A DNA stretch of 64,000 nucleotides from Candidatus Methanoperedens sp. BLZ2 (GCF_002487355.1 NZ_NTMG01000082.1:1-64000); one strand, 5' to 3'. Numbered from the stretch's first letter, positions 21,088 to 30,955 are shown. Program-made: numbers and translations. Notes: generated from the letters alone by a model not told the origin.

Positions 21088-22050
21088 TTACCGGAGCCTG
21101 CTCAGTCCTTCCTCATAAACCGAATCCGTCATTCTCACATAACCTACCTGGTGTACAAGTTCCTTTCCTGTGGTCAGGTAGTATTTTGCAAACTCCTTTA
21201 CTTCAGGACGGTTCAGGGATTCTTTCTTTACATAAATGAAGAGCGGCCTTGATAGGGGGTTATAAGTTCCGTCAAGGATTGTTTGCTCTGAAGGAAGTAC
21301 AGGTCCTTTGCCTCCATCTATTGCTATAAGCTTCAACTTGCCGGGATTTTCAACATAGTATGCGTAGCCGAAATATCCAAGCGCATTTTTCTCTCCTGCA
21401 ATGGCCTGTACCAGCATATTGTCATCCGCGCTCGCCGTGTAATCCGATCTGCTGGATTTCTCCTTGCCAACTATCGCTTCTGTGAAATAATCAAAAGTAC
21501 CTGAGTCAGTATCTGCGCCCACAAGTATTATCTTCTCGTTGGGCCAGTTGGGACGCACATCTTTCCATGTTTTTACTGTGCTGTTAGGCTCCCAAATCTT
21601 CTTCAGCTCTGCTACGGTCATGGTTTCTGCCCAGGTATTCTGAGGATTTACCATCACGGAAAGCCCATCAAAAGCAACTTTGAATTCCTCGTAAGTTATG
21701 CTGTTATTAGCACAGAGGCTTTTTTCGGAATCCTTTATTGGTCTTGAGGCATCGCTGATATCTGTCTCACCTGCGCAGAATTTCTTGAATCCTCCGCCAG
21801 TGCCGCTGATTCCAACCGTGATCCTGACATCGGGATGAAGCTTCTGGAATTCCTCTCCCACGGCTTCACTTATGGGAAATACTGTGCTCGAGCCGTCAAG
21901 TTTAATCGTCCCAGAGAGGGCTTTAATCGGTTGCTCGGTCGGCGCTGTTGGCTGTACCGTAGTCTGCACTCCAGCAGGCTGCTTGCTTACGCATCCAGCT
22001 AACAGCACGCCTGCCAGGATCAGAATTAGTAATATCTTTAATCTATTCAT
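21088..22050 (-). CDS. pstS: Phosphate-binding lipoprotein PstS
   Basis: A 320-aa periplasmic-type binding protein. The signal peptide ends in the lipobox LAGC (17-20), so it is lipid-anchored outside the cell. Phosphate-binding loops are visible: [37 protein letters not shown] and [12 protein letters not shown]. It captures phosphate and passes it to PstCA. It is the first gene of the pst operon, 53 bases before pstC, and lies behind the copy of the 34-bp phosphate-promoter element at 22096-22129, so expression is probably raised under phosphate shortage. Confidence 0.96.
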
Positions 22051-22095
22051 TTTTTATCACAACAAGAATTCTGAATCAAATAATATATAGCTTCT

Positions 22096-22129
22096 CCCAA
22101 GAATATATAGATACTATATAAAATCAGTA
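22096..22129 (-). promoter_or_regulatory. 34-bp Pho-type promoter element, copy A (upstream of pstS)
   Basis: On the plus strand it reads CCCAAGAATATATA, then 10 variable bases, then AAAATCAGTA. It lies 46 bases from the pstS ATG, with its TATA-like core placed as an archaeal promoter for minus-strand pstS. Similarity with the copy at 29771-29804 extends about 14 bases beyond the element, through a shared cttctccc/ctttttccc tract. Confidence 0.75.
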
Positions 22130-22169
22130 AATTATAGATGCTCAGAGAAGATGTGACATTTAAGCTTTA

Positions 22170-23045
22170 TTAAATGCATGCGATAGCAGATTCAATAGAA
22201 TACAGGGGCGTTAAACCATACCTTAAATTGCAGAAATCCCTGATCTGTACAAGGCTTTCAAGTGTATTTTCTTTCGATGAGTTTTTAAGTTCCAGAATCA
22301 AATTTCTTGTATTTAATTTTAATATGTTTTTAAAAACTTCCCTGAAGTTAATTCTTCCAAGCCCAAGAGGAAGGTGGCGGTCTCCAAACATTGCTTCTTC
22401 AGACTCCAGGATACCAAAGTTATCATGAAGATGCATTTGATGTATATAGCCGCCTAATTCAAAATAATCTTCCAGGGGGAATCCATAAGCATTGGAAGCA
22501 ATAAACGCATGGCCAATATCCAGGTTTATCTTTAAATTCTCCGAACCCACCATTTCAATTATATGGAAAAGTTCCCCGGGAAAAATACCTATTTTATTTC
22601 CACCGTTCCTATCAAACAGGTTCTCTAGGAGGAGAATGACGCCGTATTCTTCGGCAAGAGAACATATACGAATTAAATTAAGAATATTCAGGTTAAGACA
22701 TTTTCTTTCATTCAGACTGCCTGGATGAACAACTACATATCCTGCCCCAATTTCTGCGGCGATCTTGGCGACTTTTTCCATAATAGTGAAATTTTTTTCA
22801 TTATTAGTTGAAAAATCTATCTTTATTCCCTCAATCCTGGAATCGATGTGCGGGGCATGGATAGTAAATTCAGTGCCAAAAGATGAGCTGAGATGGTTAG
22901 TTTTTGACAATAGTTCTTTTTCCTTTTGTTTCTCTAAAAAATCCACCCTGTCAAGTCCAAGTTCAATGATTTCCACTTCACATGGATCTATGGTTCCTCC
23001 AAAATCTTTTATTTGGGGAGAATTTATGCCTATTTTTATATTCAC
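22170..23045 (-). CDS. Sugar phosphate isomerase/epimerase-like TIM barrel protein
   Basis: A 291-aa protein of the xylose isomerase-like/AP endonuclease 2 TIM-barrel superfamily. Metal-site and barrel-strand motifs are FTIHAPHID, YVVVHPGS, LLLENLFDRNGG, INLDIGHAFIAS, QMHLHDNFG and LILELKN; GDRHLPLGLGRINF is the typical loop before the last strands. The reaction is not known. It stands alone behind promoter element copy B, which places it in the phosphate-controlled group. Confidence 0.85.
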   Translation of the reverse strand: MNIKIGINSPQIKDFGGTIDPCEVEIIELGLDRVDFLEKQKEKELLSKTNHLSSSFGTEFTIHAPHIDSRIEGIKIDFSTNNEKNFTIMEKVAKIAAEIGAGYVVVHPGSLNERKCLNLNILNLIRICSLAEEYGVILLLENLFDRNGGNKIGIFPGELFHIIEMVGSENLKINLDIGHAFIASNAYGFPLEDYFELGGYIHQMHLHDNFGILESEEAMFGDRHLPLGLGRINFREVFKNILKLNTRNLILELKNSSKENTLESLVQIRDFCNLRYGLTPLYSIESAIACI

Positions 23046-23081
23046 ATATTATAGTTTCTCGCTATATGTAATATATTTTAT

Positions 23082-23115
23082 CTCAATAATCTATATATTC
23101 TAAATGAAATCAGTA
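23082..23115 (-). promoter_or_regulatory. 34-bp Pho-type promoter element, copy B
   Basis: Plus-strand sequence CTCAATAATCTATA, 10 variable bases, AAATCAGTA at the end. It lies 37 bases upstream of the ATG of the TIM-barrel gene on the minus strand. The first 17 bases are identical to copy C at 24059. Confidence 0.72.
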
Positions 23116-23150
23116 TAATTAGATTTGCAGTTAAAGAAATGCAATCAATC

Positions 23151-23558
23151 TCAAATCTTTTCTGGTGAGTAATTTATTGCAAGCACTCTTATCACTCCAA
23201 GCACCAGTAACAGTGCCGAGAGAGCGAAAATAGTTTCATATCCAAATGATTTGGAGTAAAGCCCGACAGTGACCTCACGCATTGTTATTAAAATCGTGAC
23301 GTCGGTTATGTCGGTGATTTTGATCCTTTCGAGTTTCGAGTAGTCTGCAAAGGTCTTGAAGAACTCGATCACAATAAAGAGCGTGAGAACATTAATAACT
23401 ATTTTGCTAAAACCGCCATCAAGTGAGTCTATCGCAACAGTGCGAATATCAAGTAATATCCGTAGCATTCCTGCAATGAGAGCCAATAGAAGTACATACA
23501 GTACGATGGTAATAATGGAATCAGTGATTTTTTTGAAAATTTTTGGATGGTCTATCAT
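23151..23558 (-). CDS. psiE: PsiE-family phosphate-starvation membrane protein
   Basis: A 135-aa protein with four membrane helices (about 12-36, 48-66, 86-100 and 108-128) and the central TDITDVTILITMREVTV segment. This fits the PsiE family, first known as phosphate-starvation-inducible in E. coli; its molecular role is unknown. Its ATG overlaps the stop of a 24-codon ORF (ATGA), so it is the last gene of a minus-strand run of very small ORFs starting behind element copy C. Confidence 0.83.
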   Translation of the reverse strand: MIDHPKIFKKITDSIITIVLYVLLLALIAGMLRILLDIRTVAIDSLDGGFSKIVINVLTLFIVIEFFKTFADYSKLERIKITDITDVTILITMREVTVGLYSKSFGYETIFALSALLLVLGVIRVLAINYSPEKI

Positions 23559-23629
23559 TTAAATACCATCATCAGGGCGAGTAAGAAAAGAATGAATACA
23601 AAAAACAATTCAATTTTAGTCAGACTCAT
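23555..23629 (-). CDS. 24-aa single-helix membrane peptide coupled to psiE
   Basis: ATG at 23629 encodes 24 residues: a short polar start (MSLTKIEL) followed by FFVFILFLLALMMVF, enough to cross a membrane once. The stop shares ATGA with the psiE start, the classic sign of coupled translation. No strong ribosome site is seen. Too small for family recognition. It may be a leader that opens psiE for translation or a PsiE partner subunit. Confidence 0.5.
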   Translation of the reverse strand: MSLTKIELFFVFILFLLALMMVFK

Positions 23630-23651
23630 GATATTCAAGCTTTTTTTCAAT

Positions 23652-23699
23652 TCAGAATTTTTCAAGTGATTCCCAGTCGATATTCAAATCTGATTTCAT
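23652..23699 (-). CDS. 15-aa ORF overlapping the 53-aa ORF stop
   Basis: ATG at 23699 overlaps the TGA of the preceding 53-codon ORF (ATGA) and encodes 15 residues, MKSDLNIDWESLEKF. It is amphipathic and acidic. The coupling arrangement is the only support; it may be chance. Confidence 0.25.
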   Translation of the reverse strand: MKSDLNIDWESLEKF

Positions 23700-23857
23700 G
23701 ATAGGTTAACCAGTTTAGTTATTGATGCGGAGCATATATGATATTCTTTAGCGATTGCATGTGTTGCTTTTGATAATGCATCCTGCCCATTCAATCCATT
23801 CAATACAAATTCCTCTCTTTTTTCACAGATGTATATCAGAATGTCCAATGTATTCAT
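23696..23857 (-). CDS. 53-aa small protein in the psiE operon
   Basis: ATG at 23857, 14 bases after the stop of the 50-aa ORF, encodes 53 residues starting MNTLDILIYICEKREEF and ending ITKLVNLS. It appears soluble and helical, with two cysteines and no known motif. Codon use looks like the neighbouring genes. The tight spacing on both sides supports a real operon gene. Function unknown. Confidence 0.55.
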   Translation of the reverse strand: MNTLDILIYICEKREEFVLNGLNGQDALSKATHAIAKEYHICSASITKLVNLS

Positions 23858-23871
23858 GATCTCAACACTTC

Positions 23872-24024
23872 CTATTTGGCAGCAAATCCGCCGCGCAGGA
23901 ACAGATAAATGTCCTTATCTTCCGGAGTCATTTCCATAAATCCCTCCTGGGACAAATTATTCCATGTGTCGCAAGAGAGGGATTTTTTCGTAGTTTGTTT
24001 CTTTTCTTTCATTTCTATCATCAT
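23872..24024 (-). CDS. 50-aa small protein, first ORF behind Pho element C
   Basis: ATG at 24024 encodes 50 residues: a basic start (KEKKQTTKKS), one cysteine, then WNNLSQEGFMEMTPEDKDIYLFLRGGFAAK. An internal ATG at 23940, reading MEMTPEDKDIY, has a near-perfect site (ccaggagggattt) right before it, so a 22-aa product from the internal start is possible as well. The gene lies 35 bases downstream of the 34-bp element and heads the small-ORF/psiE run. Not recognised. Confidence 0.55.
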   Translation of the reverse strand: MMIEMKEKKQTTKKSLSCDTWNNLSQEGFMEMTPEDKDIYLFLRGGFAAK

Positions 24025-24058
24025 ATCGATATTCTACTCATCGAGTTATATAATTTGT

Positions 24059-24092
24059 CTCAATAATCTATATATTATACATAAAATCAGTA
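24059..24092 (-). promoter_or_regulatory. 34-bp Pho-type promoter element, copy C
   Basis: Plus-strand sequence CTCAATAATCTATA, 10 variable bases, AAAATCAGTA at the end. It lies between the PHP gene stop and the 50-aa ORF, 35 bases from that ORF's ATG. Placed as the promoter of the small-ORF/psiE operon. Confidence 0.72.
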
Positions 24093-24114
24093 TAAATGCC
24101 CCTCTTTTTATATT

Positions 24115-24774
24115 CTATTGCCCTCTCGATATATTCCATTTTCTTTTACCTTTGATATTCAGGATAATTTCCCCGGATATTCCAAAAAAATACGATAATG
24201 GCAGCCCGATATACAATCCTGCACCAATCAATGCAAGGGCTTTTGTCTTTTTTGTGGTCTTATCTATTGCCAATTTTTCCGGCGTGAAAGTCTGCGCCAT
24301 TAAATTGGAGTAGGCATCGCGATGGTATGCGTTGAATACTTCCACGCCATCCAGTTTTAAATGACATATCTTCTTTCCGAGGGAGTGACATTGTGGGCTG
24401 AAAGGATGGGCTGCTACGGCAACACCTCCCCGGTCGTGTATAAGGTCTATAGTTAGAGGTGCGTCCAGCATGGGTTTGATTTTTTCCTGGATGAACAATG
24501 CAAGGATTTCACCGTCTGCGCTTGATATTTCTTCACCGATTACAACATCGATATTCTCTGCATGCTTTTTAGCTATTATAGCGCCCTGGATCGTATTATG
24601 GTCTGTTATGCACAGGACATCAAGTTTTTTCCTTCGGGCAGCTTCGACTGCTTTTACGGGGTCGGTAACCGATTCAGGGAAATGTAGAAATGAGTATTTT
24701 CCGAAGCCTGAACACCTGGTATGAGTATGGATGTCTGCTATACCCTGCTGTTTATCTTGATTTATTTCTTCCAT
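24115..24774 (-). CDS. PHP-domain metal-dependent phosphoesterase, atypical C-terminus
   Basis: A 219-aa protein. PHP metal-binding motifs are present at the start (ADIHTHTRCSG), middle (CITDHNT; VVIGEEISSADGEIL) and at VAAHPFSP. The usual late GSDAH motif is not found; after NAYHRDAYSNLMAQ the chain turns into a hydrophobic helix (LALIGAGLYIGLPLSYFFG) and a basic tail. Either it belongs to a membrane-attached subgroup or it lost the segment with the last metal ligands. The ATG at 24774 is chosen as the first true ATG. It sits behind a palindromic TATA element shared with the PAS/uppP operon, suggesting phosphate control. Confidence 0.8.
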   Translation of the reverse strand: MEEINQDKQQGIADIHTHTRCSGFGKYSFLHFPESVTDPVKAVEAARRKKLDVLCITDHNTIQGAIIAKKHAENIDVVIGEEISSADGEILALFIQEKIKPMLDAPLTIDLIHDRGGVAVAAHPFSPQCHSLGKKICHLKLDGVEVFNAYHRDAYSNLMAQTFTPEKLAIDKTTKKTKALALIGAGLYIGLPLSYFFGISGEIILNIKGKRKWNISRGQ

Positions 24775-24820
24775 GCAGTACAATTATTGTGTTGGAAAAA
24801 TAAAGATAATCTTAATAAAA

Positions 24821-24839
24821 TATATAATCTATATAGATT
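24821..24839 (-). promoter_or_regulatory. Palindromic TATA element upstream of the PHP gene
   Basis: A 19-base string, TATATAATCTATATAGATT, holding the perfect 14-bp palindrome AATCTATATAGATT at 24826-24839. The identical 19 bases occur at 26346-26364 upstream of the PAS gene. It lies about 47 bases from the PHP ATG. Confidence 0.65.
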
Positions 24840-24890
24840 TTTCAGGTCATTGAATTGATGCGGGATGAGAGAAGCCGCGATAAAAATATT

Positions 24891-25709
24891 CTATCCAAAT
24901 ATGTTGTACGAAGAAGACGCTATAACATAAAGTATAATGATAAAACCAAATCCGGAGCAGAAATAGCCAAAATTTATCGTCTCTGCAAGTTTTACAAGGG
25001 ATTTTATCGTCAGCAAACCAAAAATGAACGAAGCAATTATTCCAGGAATAATTAAAACATCGAATGTGTGGGTTTTCAGTAATCCAAGCAGGACTTCTAC
25101 TCCTAAAACAGCAGGAATACTTACAAGAAAGCTAACTCTTAGAGCCTCCCTGGCTGAATAACCCCTGAACATCAACGTCGAAACTGTTGTCCCTGACCTG
25201 CTCAAGCCTGGAATAGCCGTAAAACCCTGGGCAATTCCCAGATAAATTGAATCTTTCAACATCAGCTCTTTGTCCGTGTTTTTCTTCTTTTTAGCAGTCC
25301 ACTGGAATATTCCTGTCAATATCAGGAAAAATGCTATTAATAGCATTGCTGCATTCCCTGCAAAATTAAATTTATCCAGGCCGAATAATAAAAGCGGAGT
25401 GCCGATAAGACCTGTCAGCAAGGTCGTAATAATGATGAAGCTTGTTAATGTGTTTGCCTGTTTATCCTCTGCCGGGTTTTTGATGTAATTATTAAGATTC
25501 TTCAGGATTTCAAGAATTTCTGTTTTGAAGTAAACCATGGCTGCCAGCAAAGTGCCGATATGCAGCCATAATGCGATCACAAGGGCTTCAGAAAGGGTTT
25601 TGTTGTAGAATTTTACCATAATAAGGGCTCCCACACCCTTGCTTGAAACAGGGAGCCATTCGAGTACACCTTGCAGGATCCCGATTAAAATATAACTCAA
25701 AGTATCCAT
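24891..25709 (-). CDS. uppP: Undecaprenyl-diphosphatase family (UppP/BacA) membrane phosphatase
   Basis: A 272-aa polytopic protein with the two BacA active-site motifs, GVLEWLPVSSKG (about 13-24) and PGLSRSGTTVS (about 167-177), and about eight helices. It removes phosphate from polyprenyl diphosphate so the lipid carrier can be reused. MDTLSYILIG is the usual family start, hence 25709; an alternative ATG at 25754 overlaps the PAS gene stop as ATGA and would add 15 residues. It is the second gene behind the palindromic element, so probably induced with the phosphate genes; it would release phosphate outside the membrane. Confidence 0.9.
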   Translation of the reverse strand: MDTLSYILIGILQGVLEWLPVSSKGVGALIMVKFYNKTLSEALVIALWLHIGTLLAAMVYFKTEILEILKNLNNYIKNPAEDKQANTLTSFIIITTLLTGLIGTPLLLFGLDKFNFAGNAAMLLIAFFLILTGIFQWTAKKKKNTDKELMLKDSIYLGIAQGFTAIPGLSRSGTTVSTLMFRGYSAREALRVSFLVSIPAVLGVEVLLGLLKTHTFDVLIIPGIIASFIFGLLTIKSLVKLAETINFGYFCSGFGFIIILYVIASSSYNIFG

Positions 25710-25750
25710 TATTTTCTTATTCCCATTTAACTTTATTACCCTTTCTGCAA

Positions 25751-26272
25751 TCATTTGCAAAAAATTGCACGTTCCATCTTATTCCGCTCAACAATATCAT
25801 AAAAGACAAGAGTTATGCCCATTATATTATTCTCATCATCAAGAACAGGAAGGCCAATTATATCAACCGGGATATTTGCACCATTTCTGTTAACGAGAGT
25901 GGTTTGTTCGGAAAGACCAAAAAATGTGCCCTCCCGTATAACTTTTATCACAGGGTCTTCGGCAATTTCACCTGTTTTTTCATTGATTATATTAAAAATC
26001 TCTTTCAGCGGTTTTCCGACTGCATCTACCTTGCTCCACCCGGTTAAAGCCTCAGCAAATGGATTTATAAGTTTTATAAATCCTTTTTCATCAATTGCAA
26101 TGACAGCATCTCCTATGTTATTTATTATGGCTGCCTGCCATTTTTCGCTTTCTTTTAATTTTCTTTCCATATTGGATTTATAAGAATCCATATCAATTGC
26201 GGCATGCAATTCTCCATCTATTGTATCATCAAAATAAGACTTTTTCATCCACAATAAGTTAGTTTCTACCAT
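25751..26272 (-). CDS. Stand-alone PAS-domain protein
   Basis: A 173-aa protein with one PAS domain (about residues 50-165: WQAAIINNIGDAVIAIDEKGFIKLINPFAEALTGW, then VDIIGLPVLDDENNIMGITLVFYDI). There is no kinase or DNA-binding domain after it. An N-terminal helix (about 25-50) leads into the PAS fold. It likely senses a small ligand or redox state and acts through a partner. The start at 26272 avoids a hydrophobic upstream extension that would overlap the promoter. Its stop overlaps a possible uppP ATG. Confidence 0.82.
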   Translation of the reverse strand: MVETNLLWMKKSYFDDTIDGELHAAIDMDSYKSNMERKLKESEKWQAAIINNIGDAVIAIDEKGFIKLINPFAEALTGWSKVDAVGKPLKEIFNIINEKTGEIAEDPVIKVIREGTFFGLSEQTTLVNRNGANIPVDIIGLPVLDDENNIMGITLVFYDIVERNKMERAIFCK

Positions 26273-26345
26273 AACAATTAACCTTTTTTCAAAATGAATA
26301 CAAATAGTATATAAAAATATCATTAAATATTTGATGCATATACAT

Positions 26346-26364
26346 TATATAATCTATATAGATT
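26346..26364 (-). promoter_or_regulatory. Palindromic TATA element upstream of the PAS-uppP operon
   Basis: The same 19 bases as at 24821-24839, with the palindrome at 26351-26364. It lies about 75 bases from the PAS ATG. Confidence 0.65.
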
Positions 26365-26466
26365 GGATTTATCGCATCATAGAATTCTCCTTGTAGAAAA
26401 ATACTTTTTGTAATACCGGAACAGAAGTAGCCAAGTTAATCTTTTCTGCACTTCTATTGAAATATG

Positions 26467-26489
26467 CCGCCGGGAAAAGCTTCCGGCGG
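26467..26489 (-). terminator. GC-rich hairpin after the alkaline phosphatase gene
   Basis: CCGCCGG (26467-26473) pairs with CCGGCGG (26483-26489) around a 9-base loop. It lies 19-41 bases beyond the alkaline phosphatase stop in the minus direction and before the PAS promoter, so it likely terminates that gene. Confidence 0.55.
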
Positions 26490-26507
26490 TTTATACCTCA
26501 ACACATA

Positions 26508-27716
26508 TTATTGTTCTAAAGCTTTTATCATTACCCCATAAAGGTCTGTATTTTCAACAGCCCTGCCTAATGCTTTGCTGCCCGGCCCCTGGCTCCAGAT
26601 AATAGTATCTACGCCGGTATGCTCATCGCTTGTCCAACCGGCTGTTACAGATTCACCGGCCCTGAGAAGTCTGTCCGGCCCATTTACGGCAAAACCGCCT
26701 GTCTCATGGTCAGGAACAATAATGAGCAGAGTATGTTCTTTTCGTTTCGGACTTGCGTTAGTCCAATCCAGAACTACCTTTACAGACTCATCAAAAGCTA
26801 AGGTTTCACCCATCTGGTACTTCAAATCATTAGCATGATTAGCCCAGTCAATCTGGGAGCCTTCGACCATAAGGAAGAAACCATCCCTGTCCTTTTCAAG
26901 GATATTCAGGGCGGCAGACGTCATTTCCGGCAATCTCGGTTCCGTTGTCCCGGATATGCGAAGATATTCGGGGGTCATGCTGCTGTTGTTGAAAAGCCCC
27001 AGCAGTTTCACCGTTCCGTTTGCTACAGCAGAGTCCATTCCCGCTCTGGTATAGACCGATTGATAACCTTTTTGTTCAGCTTCGGCGATAAAGTTTCCAG
27101 AAGTACCGCAGGTATCCGGCTTTGTTGAATTGAATTTTACAACTCCTCCGCCCAGCATCAAATCAACGCCAGTTATCTCGATATATTGCCTGGCTATTTC
27201 ATTCTCGCAGTTTCGGGACTTAACATGCGCCCCAAATACAGCCGGAGTAGCGTGGGTAATTGTGGAAGTAGCCACAAGACCTGTAGCTTTACCTTCTGCT
27301 TTAGCCATTTCCAGAATGCTGGGATTATAGGGGCGGCCATCGACGTGATAACAGATTTCACCGTTATTGAATTTCTCACCGCATGCCCAGGCTGATCCAG
27401 CGGCGGCAGAATCGGTTATGATGCTGTTGGCCGAATAGGTTCTCTGGTATCCGATGTTCTCCAGCGTTTCAAGATAAAGGGGAGCCTCATCAGGTCCGTT
27501 CTTATATATCCTGGCTGCTGTCACATCCGCCAGACCCATACCATCAGGCACCATGAGTATGATATTTTTGACTTCTTTATGGTTCTCTTGGTAGTTTTCA
27601 GATTCCGATAACTCATTATTTATATTCGCATTGGATGGCACAAATATAACTGCCATCACATTCGGTAATGCCAGCAGTAGTGCACAAATTCCAATTAATT
27701 TAATATTTTTATTCAT
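26508..27716 (-). CDS. phoA: Secreted alkaline phosphatase (PhoA family)
   Basis: A 402-aa exported alkaline phosphatase. A signal peptide (about 1-21) is followed by the first metal aspartate in LMVPDGMG, the nucleophile serine in TDSAAAGSAWACG, and the late metal ligands in EGSQIDWANHAND, VPDHETGG and DEHTGVDT. The length is near the bacterial PhoA norm. It frees phosphate from organic esters outside the cell for Pst uptake. The ATG at 27716 follows ggaggaat; the extra upstream residues from 27773 do not look like a signal peptide. An AATCTATATAG promoter element lies about 90 bases upstream. Confidence 0.93.
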   Translation of the reverse strand: MNKNIKLIGICALLLALPNVMAVIFVPSNANINNELSESENYQENHKEVKNIILMVPDGMGLADVTAARIYKNGPDEAPLYLETLENIGYQRTYSANSIITDSAAAGSAWACGEKFNNGEICYHVDGRPYNPSILEMAKAEGKATGLVATSTITHATPAVFGAHVKSRNCENEIARQYIEITGVDLMLGGGVVKFNSTKPDTCGTSGNFIAEAEQKGYQSVYTRAGMDSAVANGTVKLLGLFNNSSMTPEYLRISGTTEPRLPEMTSAALNILEKDRDGFFLMVEGSQIDWANHANDLKYQMGETLAFDESVKVVLDWTNASPKRKEHTLLIIVPDHETGGFAVNGPDRLLRAGESVTAGWTSDEHTGVDTIIWSQGPGSKALGRAVENTDLYGVMIKALEQ

Positions 27717-27802
27717 TATTCCTCCTTCCTTAAGTGATACAAAATCAATGATTTTGCTATCGGAGATATTCATATTATAAAGTTTATATAATTAATCAAA
27801 AT

Positions 27803-27815
27803 AATCTATATAGTT
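27803..27815 (-). promoter_or_regulatory. AATCTATATAG promoter element upstream of alkaline phosphatase
   Basis: AATCTATATAGTT matches one arm and the core of the palindromic elements at 24826 and 26351. A further aaaaatcag string lies 14 bases on, recalling the end of the 34-bp elements. Weaker match than copies A-C. Confidence 0.45.
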
Positions 27816-27833
27816 CTCTATAATTATGAAAAA

Positions 27834-28238
27834 TCAGAACTCTTCCTGTATCTTTGACTTTATTTCGTCCCTGACCTTCCTGAATGCAGAAAGTATCTCA
27901 TCTTCAGACCCTTTTGCCTCTGCCGGGTCATTAAAGCTCCAGTGCAAATGACGGGCTTTACCGGGGAAAACAGGACAGGTCTCCCTGGCAGCATCGCATG
28001 TGGTTATTACGAAATCAAATTTTGTCCCCTGGAACTCCTGCACCGATTTTGACCTGTGCCCTGAAATATCAATGCCAATTTCCGCCATGACTTTTATTGC
28101 CGCTGGATTTACAGCCGAGGGTCTTGTTCCTGCACTGGAAACCTCAAACTCATCGCCCATGAGATGCCGCAAGATCCCTTCTGCCATCTGGGAACGGCAG
28201 GAATTTTTCGTGCAGAGAAATAACACTTTTTTCTTCAT
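27834..28238 (-). CDS. arsC: Arsenate reductase / low-molecular-weight phosphatase (ArsC)
   Basis: A 134-aa protein of the low-molecular-weight tyrosine-phosphatase fold. The catalytic loop is [15 protein letters not shown] and the arsenate-reductase-type cysteine pair is in [27 protein letters not shown] carries the general-acid aspartate. It is the thioredoxin-coupled ArsC type that turns arsenate into arsenite. Arsenate enters through Pst-type phosphate uptake, so placement in a phosphate locus makes sense. The start at 28238 is the first ATG; a TTG lies three codons upstream. Confidence 0.88.
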
Positions 28239-28296
28239 TGTCCTCAAGGTATGTTTTAATTGTAGCTTAAATTTAATATCTTATCGAACTTGCTCT

Positions 28297-28320
28297 TATA
28301 GAGTTCTATTGTCTATTTTT
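28297..28320. repeat. 24-bp direct repeat, copy 1
   Basis: TATAGAGTTCTAT, T, GTCTATTTTT. It matches 28515-28538 at 22 of 24 positions and lies upstream of arsC on the minus strand. The two copies border a GC-rich, hairpin-forming segment. Confidence 0.55.
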
Positions 28321-28329
28321 ATTTCTCGG

Positions 28330-28425
28330 AACATGAAACCAGTACCCCCACTCTCCCCTGCATGAGGGCATGTTTCAAGGCGACAGAAGCCCTTACTTCG
28401 GTAAGAGGATGATGAACTAAGGACT
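28330..28425 (+). mobile_element. Possible IS200/IS605-type right-end remnant
   Basis: The segment contains CAGAAGCC, then the perfect UUCG-type hairpin CTTAC-TTCG-GTAAG (28392-28405), then aggatgatgaac. A GAAGCC-plus-hairpin stretch is typical of the right end (omega-RNA region) just after archaeal tnpB genes. No tnpB lies upstream, so at most this is a stranded end or a non-autonomous relic. The assignment rests on pattern similarity alone. Confidence 0.35.
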
Positions 28426-28514
28426 TCATTTTCCGAGTTTTTTGGCGGCAAGTGTGTGAGCCACCATAGTTACTTTAAGATTATAGACTATTTCAAGATA
28501 ATCATCATAAACTA

Positions 28515-28538
28515 TATAGAGTCCTATAGTCTATTTTT
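28515..28538. repeat. 24-bp direct repeat, copy 2
   Basis: TATAGAGTCCTAT, A, GTCTATTTTT, the second copy of the element at 28297-28320. It lies at the other side of the hairpin segment and just before a second structured stretch. Confidence 0.55.
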
Positions 28539-28549
28539 TTTTCTTTCAT

Positions 28550-28720
28550 GAAATAACAAAATGCAGGCTCAAAAAAACATGCTCGCAATCGAACAGGCCA
28601 GGTATAAGCAAGTGTCTTAGCCGCGCTCCTTTCCTGGGTTCCCAGGCTTACCCGGCGGATAAACGGGTTCCACTTTCGGAAAGGTTCTGAATAAGGTATG
28701 ATTTTTAGAAGAATTAACAT
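28550..28720. other. GC-rich structured intergenic segment
   Basis: About 170 bases without a convincing gene. It holds the perfect palindrome CCTGGG-TT-CCCAGG (28633-28646) and the stem ACCCG/CGGGT (28650-28668), in contrast to the AT-rich promoters around it. It could be a small RNA gene or an insertion-element remnant. The minus-strand reading frame through it is compositionally unlike its neighbours. Confidence 0.4.
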
Positions 28721-28728
28721 AATATTAT

Positions 28729-29727
28729 CTATGTACTTTTAGAGAAGTCAATGGCTAACTCTGCGACATTTGCAGCATAATCCCCTATTCTTTTCACGCT
28801 GTCAGCTATGAGACCTAAAGACATGACAGCATCAGGATTTAGAGTTGCTGCCGGATGTCTGGTTCTGCGCAACTCTTCGCCTATTTTTTTATGTTCTTCA
28901 ATAACCCGGTTCGCAAGTTCTACGTTGCATTTTGTGAAGGAACCAACTGAATCATTGACAAGTTTATAAGAGATGATACCGATTTTAATGATATCATCGA
29001 GCATAGTATTGGGGATTTTTTCGCCAGATTCCATTATTATGCCAGCAATCTTACTTGCATGGTCTGATATGCGCTCTAACTGGTCGCTTGCCAGCCTGTA
29101 ATAGAATGCACCTGTCAATCCCAGTTCACTTTTTTCAGATATCCTTGAATGTAGCAGGATATCCATGAACTGTTTTGATATCAATAGATTGAGGCGGTCT
29201 ATCTCATCGTCCTGCTTTACCACTTCAGAAGCGAGGGAAACATCCTTTGTATTCATTGCTTTAAAGGTGTTGTCAAGCATCCACTGCACTTTTATATGCA
29301 TGCGCCGAAAACTCATATCGATAGGCATATCTCCCGGATTCGAGATATCCTGAATAACCACCTTTTCGTTTGTTTCTTCGATAATCTCAATACCTATCAA
29401 TTTTTTTACTATGGCTGTTATATCTTTTCTCTGCTCCATTGTGATATTTTTCGCTTTAAGTTCGATCACACGATACCCTGCAACGTAGGTGGCTATTATA
29501 TCTCTAATTAGGGGATCGCCTCCACTTCCATCTATAGTTAAGGTCTTTGTGCCATGAGACGCAAAACCGCCATTTGTAGTTAAAAGAAGACTACCGTCCT
29601 CCTGGGGATGCATGTGAACAAGTGAACCGGAGGTTATTCCGGCATTGACAGCCCACTTCTTGGGAAGAGAAACAACGAATGTTGATTTGCCCGTTATCTG
29701 GACTTTTCTTATTTCTGCATTGATCAT
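28729..29727 (-). CDS. AbrB-PhoU phosphate regulator (first of divergent pair)
   Basis: A 332-aa fusion. Residues about 4-50 are an AbrB/SpoVT-type DNA-binding fold (EIRKVQITGKSTFVVSLPKKWAVNAGITSGSLVHM). Residues about 120-330 are PhoU-like helices with the metal patterns KQDDEIDRLNLLISKQF and SDQLERISDHASKIAG, and a second set ADSVKRIGDYAANVAELA. This design, common in archaea, could read the state of the phosphate transporter and bind DNA directly. It lies behind element copy I and opposite a paralogue; both are good candidates for the regulator of the 34-bp elements, which is an inference. Confidence 0.88.
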   Translation of the reverse strand: MINAEIRKVQITGKSTFVVSLPKKWAVNAGITSGSLVHMHPQEDGSLLLTTNGGFASHGTKTLTIDGSGGDPLIRDIIATYVAGYRVIELKAKNITMEQRKDITAIVKKLIGIEIIEETNEKVVIQDISNPGDMPIDMSFRRMHIKVQWMLDNTFKAMNTKDVSLASEVVKQDDEIDRLNLLISKQFMDILLHSRISEKSELGLTGAFYYRLASDQLERISDHASKIAGIIMESGEKIPNTMLDDIIKIGIISYKLVNDSVGSFTKCNVELANRVIEEHKKIGEELRRTRHPAATLNPDAVMSLGLIADSVKRIGDYAANVAELAIDFSKST

Positions 29728-29770
29728 TTTAATTATATTTCTTGAGGTTAGTAGATACTATATACTTTTT

Positions 29771-29804
29771 CCCAAGAATATATATACTATATATAAAATC
29801 AGTA
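29771..29804 (-). promoter_or_regulatory. 34-bp Pho-type promoter element, copy I
   Basis: Plus-strand sequence CCCAAGAATATATA, 10 variable bases, AAAATCAGTA. Nearly identical to the pstS copy, including flanking bases. It lies 44 bases from the ATG of the minus-strand AbrB-PhoU gene. Confidence 0.75.
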
Positions 29805-29807
29805 TTG

Positions 29808-29930
29808 ATGTACTCGCTTGACGATTCTGATTCTTTTGACCGCGAAGGGCTGAGGATAAATACAGGATTTTACGCGATGGAAATCTCCATAAGGTATATA
29901 TTTCATTTCAAGAATCTATATATATTATAA
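29808..29930 (+). CDS. Possible 40-aa ORF between two Pho elements
   Basis: ATG at 29808 encodes 40 residues (MYSLDDSDSFDREGL to KNLYIL), fitting neatly between copies I and J of the promoter element but ending inside copy J. The first 30 residues look coding; there is no ribosome site. It may be chance. Confidence 0.25.
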   Translation: MYSLDDSDSFDREGLRINTGFYAMEISIRYIFHFKNLYIL

Positions 29931-29940
29931 AACATCAGTA
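29907..29940. promoter_or_regulatory. 34-bp Pho-type promoter element, copy J
   Basis: Plus-strand sequence TTCAAGAATCTATA, 10 variable bases, AAACATCAGTA at the end. It is the only copy next to a plus-strand gene (AbrB-PhoU at 29954), only 13 bases from its ATG, yet has the same strand orientation as the other four. It may serve both genes of the divergent pair. Confidence 0.65.
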
Positions 29941-29953
29941 GAGTAATGATAAT

Positions 29954-30955
29954 ATGGAAGCACGGAAAGTTTACGTAAGCGGCGGCTCTACATATGTAAT
30001 TTCGCTGCCAAAAAAATGGGTTAAGAAGACTAACCTGAAGCCGGGAGACTCTCTGATGGTCACAGAACATGGCAGTTCTTTGCTGATCGGGACAAGTGCA
30101 ATTGAAAAAGAGTCACAAACTAAGGAGATTAAAATCTCACAAATAACATCAAGCGAAGCTCTTGAGCGTATATTAATTGCTTTTTATCTGGTGGGTTATG
30201 ATACAATTAAAATAAAAGTGGACCGGAAGGATCACCTTGCATACAGGGAGATTATACGGAACATTATGGACTATTTGATAGGTGTCGAGATAGTCGAAGA
30301 TACTAACGAAGCAATGACGCTTGAGATAATGCTGGATTATAAACGTATGAGTACCATGCAGATACTCCAGCGAATGTTCTCCATAGATAGGTCGATGCTT
30401 CTTGATCTTGGCAAGGCTTTAAAAAACATGGATATCGGACTGGCAAAAGATATAATAGCAAGAGAGAAAGAAATTGACAGGCTCTATTTTTTAGTTGTCA
30501 GGCAGCTTAAGAGCGCTGTAGAATATCAGCAGATAGCGGAAAAACTCGGGATAAAATCTCAAAGGGATTGCCTTGGGTACAGGATTGTAGTAAAGGTTCT
30601 TGAAAGAATTGCGGACCATATTGAAAACATCGCAAAAAGTTACATCCGGTTATTTGAGATTCAAAAAGAAGCGCAACTGGACGAATTTATAGATATCACA
30701 AAGGATATAGTTGCAACTTTCGAAAAATCTGTTCAGGCATTATTTACAAGAAATGGTGAAATGGCTGAAATAGTTTTTTATGAACTGAAGAAGGTTGAGA
30801 AATCCCATTCCGATATTTCAAAAAGATTGTTCGAGATAGAAGATATTCAATCTGCTATTTTAGAAAAAACGATGCTTGATAGCTTTGGGAGAATAGCGAG
30901 CTATAGCGGAGATATTGCAGAGGTAGCTATCAATATGTCAACTGAAGTATCTTGA
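29954..30955 (+). CDS. AbrB-PhoU phosphate regulator (second of divergent pair)
   Basis: A 333-aa fusion, paralogous to the minus-strand neighbour. The AbrB-type start is ARKVYVSGGSTYVISLPKKWVKKTNLKPGDSLMV; PhoU-like helices follow with AREKEIDRLYFLVVRQL, VVKVLERIADHIENIAKSY and LDSFGRIASYSGDIAEVAIN. The metal-binding aspartates are fewer in the last repeat than in true PhoU. Divergent transcription from a shared 226-base region with two promoter elements suggests auto- and cross-regulation; this is inferred. Confidence 0.88.
   Translation: MEARKVYVSGGSTYVISLPKKWVKKTNLKPGDSLMVTEHGSSLLIGTSAIEKESQTKEIKISQITSSEALERILIAFYLVGYDTIKIKVDRKDHLAYREIIRNIMDYLIGVEIVEDTNEAMTLEIMLDYKRMSTMQILQRMFSIDRSMLLDLGKALKNMDIGLAKDIIAREKEIDRLYFLVVRQLKSAVEYQQIAEKLGIKSQRDCLGYRIVVKVLERIADHIENIAKSYIRLFEIQKEAQLDEFIDITKDIVATFEKSVQALFTRNGEMAEIVFYELKKVEKSHSDISKRLFEIEDIQSAILEKTMLDSFGRIASYSGDIAEVAINMSTEVS

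Follow-up and report, generated by a model that had tools for sequence, protein, structure and literature searches.

A 34-bp element that recurs five times in a 64,000-nucleotide stretch from Candidatus Methanoperedens sp. BLZ2 (GCF_002487355.1, NZ_NTMG01000082.1:1-64000; the window hereafter) is probably the archaeal Pho box of Methanoperedens and its family, putatively bound by proteins that join an AbrB-type domain to PhoU (AbrB-PhoU). A sequence-only reading had placed five copies on the plus strand, at 22096, 23082, 24059, 29771 and 29907, and all five were confirmed. The pattern CAAKAATMTATA-N10-AAMATCAGTA, searched with up to three mismatches, matched exactly these copies in the window (22098, 23084, 24061, 29773 and 29909), with 0.01 matches expected from dinucleotide shuffles; the copy at 23082 shows a single departure from the pattern (GAAATCAGTA). 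The gaps of 35-46 bases that had been given between the element and four minus-strand gene starts measured 34-45 bases, a one-base difference of counting convention, and the small open reading frame (ORF) among these genes probably has its true start at an ATG 12 bases further in. Gene identities were checked by significant Pfam/NCBIfam matches for PstS, PsiE, alkaline phosphatase, PhoU and Pit.

Genome scans placed the element almost only before phosphate genes, and the common regulator and regulon that had been deduced from exact spacing and restriction to such genes are therefore well supported. In the 3.74-Mb genome that contains the window, the reversed-pattern control gave no matches, and the scan revealed a perfect sixth copy before an operon of a DUF47 gene and the Pit phosphate transporter (C54:13861-13892), a weaker seventh copy with three mismatches before a third AbrB-PhoU gene (C44:22087-22118), and four more three-mismatch matches without an adjacent phosphate gene. 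At up to two mismatches, the element is present in 32 of the 34 family genomes, with 112 copies in this set, and 103 of these are located at pstS, the gene of a triosephosphate isomerase (TIM)-barrel protein, the small-ORF/psiE operon, Pit or AbrB-PhoU genes. One genome, G028, has none at this threshold and carries a four-mismatch copy before AbrB-PhoU3. The exact pattern, scanned against 84,980 species genomes, matched 40 contigs, and all 40 are Methanoperedenaceae DNA by their title or by correspondence with family genomes; no exact copy was found in the IMG/VR viral contigs. Outside the family, 152 genomes yielded seven forward versus two control matches at up to two mismatches, which is near background, and the two-mismatch sites L069 and L091 look like chance. 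A contig titled Patescibacteria (L224, JAHIHE010000163.1) is a misbinned Methanoperedens contig, with the element in place and a PstS 84% identical to that of the window.

The family sites were aligned in a single orientation before their anatomy was read, and were divided by the position of the gene. In class I the phosphate gene lies on the CAAKAAT side and reads away from the element, and in class II AbrB-PhoU2 or AbrB-PhoU3 (AbrB-PhoU2/3) lies on the ATCAGTA side; 76 of the 112 copies belong to class I, 11 to class II, 16 to both and 9 to neither. Common to the sites, a stretch similar to the transcription factor B (TFB) recognition element (BRE), KGANAAA, lies beyond the CAAKAAT end and is followed by TATATA, which begins exactly 8 bp past that end in 96 of the 103 phosphate-gene sites (72/76 class I, 9/11 class II and 15/16 shared sites). 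Because these two signals follow at fixed spacing, the 34-mer forms only the upstream portion of a promoter module, which measures about 46-48 bp. The element originally described is found at all five places, and the conserved unit extends beyond it to TATATA. The fixed distance between element and TATA box also stood, with the position of the box corrected: since TATATA starts 8 bp outside the element, the class I element lies wholly upstream of BRE and TATA, as an activator site would. Bases resembling TATA also occur within the element, but were discarded as a start signal for the target genes, given the invariant and better placed TATATA outside. The distance from class I sites to the gene start was mostly 47-53 bp for pstS-type genes (31 sites), 38-44 bp for the TIM-barrel gene, mostly 33-37 bp for the small ORF, mostly 36-61 bp for AbrB-PhoU1 and 103-130 bp for DUF47-Pit.

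Four of the copies in the window are class I, and these are assigned, with their TATA boxes and genes, to the minus strand. The first (22096-22129), identified by pattern match and alignment, lies upstream of pstS (21088-22050; TIGR02136), which encodes the phosphate-binding protein and has pst genes downstream; the TATATA box of this promoter (22084-22089) is 8 bp beyond the element. The second (23082-23115, with TATATT at 23070-23075) precedes the target gene of a xylose-isomerase-like TIM-barrel protein of unassigned function (22170-23045). The third (24059-24092, TATATA at 24047-24052) is upstream of an operon that begins with a conserved small ORF of 50 aa (23872-24024), followed by another of 53 aa (23696-23857) and a PsiE-family gene (23151-23558; PF06146). 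The two small proteins have no Pfam match and head the psiE operon throughout the genus. The fourth (29771-29804, TATATA at 29759-29764) precedes AbrB-PhoU1 (28729-29727), which is a candidate regulator as well as a target.

The fifth copy (29907-29940, plus strand) is class II; it lies over the presumed start region of AbrB-PhoU2 (29954-30955, plus strand), with its end 14 bp ahead of the ATG. It had been described as standing in the region shared by two divergent AbrB-PhoU genes; it is present there, and its role was corrected to a second geometry over the AbrB-PhoU2 start. This copy and its counterparts lie 13-18 bp before the ATG of AbrB-PhoU2/3, in reversed orientation, in 26 of 27 cases. 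Placed for transcription of AbrB-PhoU2, a TATATA box (29895-29900, strand not assigned) flanks the fifth copy on its CAAKAAT side. Since the order toward the gene is TATA, about 20 bp, TCTATATATA, ATCAGTA and ATG, the element would cover the start region, and its position relative to the presumed start site would resemble that of an autoregulatory site. Several AbrB-PhoU2/3 orthologues have an AAGGAG ribosome-binding site before the ATG, from which we infer that these genes are probably transcribed with a leader, from the outer TATA. The internal CTATAAAA was also considered as their TATA box, and the outer one was preferred.

The main candidate regulator is AbrB-PhoU2, with a MazE/AbrB domain and a PhoU domain. 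Among the AbrB-PhoU members, PhoU was found in 16/16 and the MazE/AbrB-type N terminus in 15/16. An AlphaFold2 model of AbrB-PhoU2 has a mean predicted local distance difference test (pLDDT) score of 82 and a confident PhoU bundle, with a template modelling score (TMt) of about 0.8 to solved PhoU structures. Between the AbrB part and this bundle, residues 56-126 form a middle beta-alpha-beta-alpha-beta-beta domain, whose non-PhoU fold matches include Alba DNA-binding proteins (probability 1.00, E 0.4; a weak match); a search for sequence support of the Alba likeness of this domain gave none. Homologues of AbrB-PhoU are present in 174 of the 186 genomes of the order, and close relatives of AbrB-PhoU2/3 only within the family. 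Searches of the literature available without subscription turned up no publication that describes an AbrB-PhoU regulator or a Pho box of Methanoperedens.

Relatives of the module were detected in other families of the order. Before AbrB-PhoU genes of these families, TTTATATAT is followed 16-20 bp later by CTATATAG, the distance at which CTATATAG lies past the TATA box. The latter is present in 22 of 38 AbrB-PhoU upstream regions, compared with 27 occurrences in 190 kb of the same loci overall, a figure that overstates the number of independent events because many of these outgroup genes and promoters are closely related. No other observation speaks as strongly for a link of the TATAG core with AbrB-PhoU and for an autoregulation that predates the genus. 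In families f3 and f4, which are probably lineages of anaerobic methanotrophic archaea (ANME-2), the half-module TTMTTGGGANNAACTATATA gave 30 matches at up to two mismatches, 21 of them before pstS, pstB or pstC; the matches with no or one mismatch are all at pst genes except L297, at a metallophosphoesterase-like protein as judged by eye. Among 37 genomes of genera g16, g17 and g26, which probably represent Methanosarcina and its relatives, 21 contain CTATANNATATNNGGCRAATNTTTATATA, mostly shortly upstream of pstS where the position of pstS is known. The TACTGAT end was observed in Methanoperedenaceae only. Within the genome of the window, the 26-bp half of the module nearest TATA matched the known sites, the phoA promoter (27785-27810, minus strand, no mismatches) and one weak site with no adjacent gene. 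The phoA site (TATAGATTATT..TATATA) stands without the full element before the alkaline phosphatase gene (26508-27773, minus strand; PF00245), whose orthologue in G005 has the full element with three mismatches (L052:7108).

In the explanation that we regard as probable, the element is the Pho box of the family and most likely the binding site of the AbrB-PhoU proteins, built into the rigid promoter module, TACTGATTTTATATAGTATMTATAKATTMTTG followed by KGANAAA (BRE) and TATATA. At class I genes (pstS, the TIM-barrel gene, the small-ORF/psiE operon, AbrB-PhoU1 and DUF47-Pit) the element abuts BRE, the position expected of an activator that would aid binding of TATA-binding protein (TBP) and TFB. 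At AbrB-PhoU2/3 it lies downstream of TATA over the presumed start, and binding of the protein there would obstruct the promoter of its own gene; some copies serve both directions. The AbrB-PhoU proteins would thus be one-component regulators, with an AbrB-type DNA-binding domain fused to the phosphate-signalling PhoU fold, that recognise the ATCTATAKAT core, activate their targets when phosphate is scarce and limit their own synthesis by autorepression. The element, its rigid spacing, its restriction to phosphate genes, the two geometries and their conservation are established by the present data; AbrB-PhoU as the binder, the sign of regulation and the signal sensed are inferred, with the sign as the least secure part of the mechanism. 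A bolder form of this explanation, less likely than not, is a one-component switch in which AbrB-PhoU, possibly with the Alba-like middle domain as a second DNA contact, would bind one 32-bp module whose side relative to TATA decides the outcome: phosphate genes would be activated and the regulator's own gene repressed, some genomes would have a single shared bidirectional promoter, and diverged versions would operate throughout the order, in methane oxidisers and in methanogens.

The main rival keeps the same element and regulator family and reverses the sign: with plentiful phosphate the bound protein would overlap BRE and exclude TFB, and it would be released under phosphate limitation. The element does end right at BRE with no gap, class II copies cover the start region as a repressor site would, and bacterial PhoU proteins have a negative effect on Pho genes. 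However, the target-gene element lies wholly upstream of BRE and TATA, which is unusual for a repressor, and the pho-boxes of Halobacterium salinarum are reported as essential for upregulation (PMC6560208). We regard target repression as rather unlikely.

Several observations weigh against AbrB-PhoU as the regulator and would fit a different transcription factor, such as a winged-helix protein or a response regulator encoded elsewhere, with the AbrB-PhoU genes as mere members of the regulon. G006, which is 99% complete, lacks AbrB-PhoU2/3 and retains AbrB-PhoU1 with four elements; the reverse holds for G001 and G002, which have elements and AbrB-PhoU2/3 and lack AbrB-PhoU1. No single paralogue is thus always present, which would fit either exchangeable paralogues or the participation of another protein. 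AbrB-PhoU is found in most of the order whereas only one family has the full element. Two further points bear on the AbrB-PhoU explanation itself: its DNA-binding N terminus has low confidence in the AlphaFold2 model, and the relatedness of the outgroup promoters inflates the counts given above. On the other hand, no family genome with the element is without an AbrB-PhoU, and AbrB-PhoU promoters share the conserved TATAG core outside the family too, as self-recognition predicts. Binding by a different factor appears unlikely.

A strong constitutive core promoter without any regulator would account for an A+T-rich, TATA-like element that abuts the BRE/TATA box, but genome-wide matches stand nearly all at phosphate genes and positions outside BRE and TATA, for example TACTGAT, are near-invariant across the aligned sites, which makes this very improbable. 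Recent duplication or a mobile repeat spread locally, as five near-identical copies within 8 kb might suggest, has hardly any likelihood, since orientation and distance are fixed for each gene class over the genus while the flanks differ, and extra copies stand on other contigs before Pit and the third AbrB-PhoU.

Other sites were noted as well. The element precedes operons with a polyhydroxyalkanoate (PHA)-synthase subunit E-like protein in G008 (L060:1993) and G027 (L099:2002), which suggests a link between carbon storage and phosphate limitation in some species. It was also found before an uncharacterised protein of 95-111 aa (L097:2095, L097:5395 and L075:717), an S-layer protein gene (L081:6114) and an ArsR-type helix-turn-helix gene (L066:1956). 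In the window, the perfect palindrome AATCTATATAGATT, which is the element core as a full dyad, is located at 24826-24839 and 26351-26364, amid the phosphate genes, where it precedes a PHP-domain gene (24783) and a pair of genes for a PAS protein and an undecaprenyl-diphosphatase (26323); these palindromes are possibly a second tier of the regulon.

Regulation of Pst transporters through a pho-box and PhoU has been described in Halobacterium salinarum (Furtwangler et al. 2010, as related in PMC6560208), and PhoU2 of Haloferax volcanii is a precedent for a PhoU regulator (PMC6267482). The haloarchaeal system, in which PhoU-type regulators are credited with control through a cis element of pst promoters, resembles the present one in kind; a module of about 48 bp with BRE and TATA at fixed spacing, two geometries and a broader set of genes (Pit, TIM-barrel protein and small ORFs) distinguish the Methanoperedens group. 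The comparative support for the Methanoperedens box, a probable variant of this kind, is unusually strong. As with the bacterial PhoB/PhoP Pho box, one class of site precedes pst, psiE, alkaline phosphatase and regulator genes; unlike the PhoB box, the Methanoperedens consensus, by reading, carries TACTGAT at one end only and a core rich in TATAG, without TGTCA-type 7-mer direct repeats at 11 bp, its candidate regulator is a PhoU fusion and not a response regulator, and its promoters are of the archaeal TATA/BRE type. The position of the target-gene site directly upstream of BRE/TATA is also that of the archaeal upstream activator site of Ptr2 in Methanocaldococcus jannaschii, which belongs to the Lrp family, in contrast to the AbrB-PhoU candidate here.

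To our knowledge, the sensing of phosphate shortage and the response to it are poorly understood in archaea outside the halophiles. For the methane-oxidising Methanoperedens these data provide a defined cis element, a short list of targets, candidate regulators and a rigid promoter geometry, and genes of unassigned role, namely those of the TIM-barrel protein and of the conserved small proteins (about 50 aa) and the PHA-synthase operons of two genomes, are placed in a phosphate response. Related modules are recognisable elsewhere in the order, in families with cultivable methanogens that are open to genetic testing, and the element offers a concrete, testable phosphate control switch for a major methane-consuming group.

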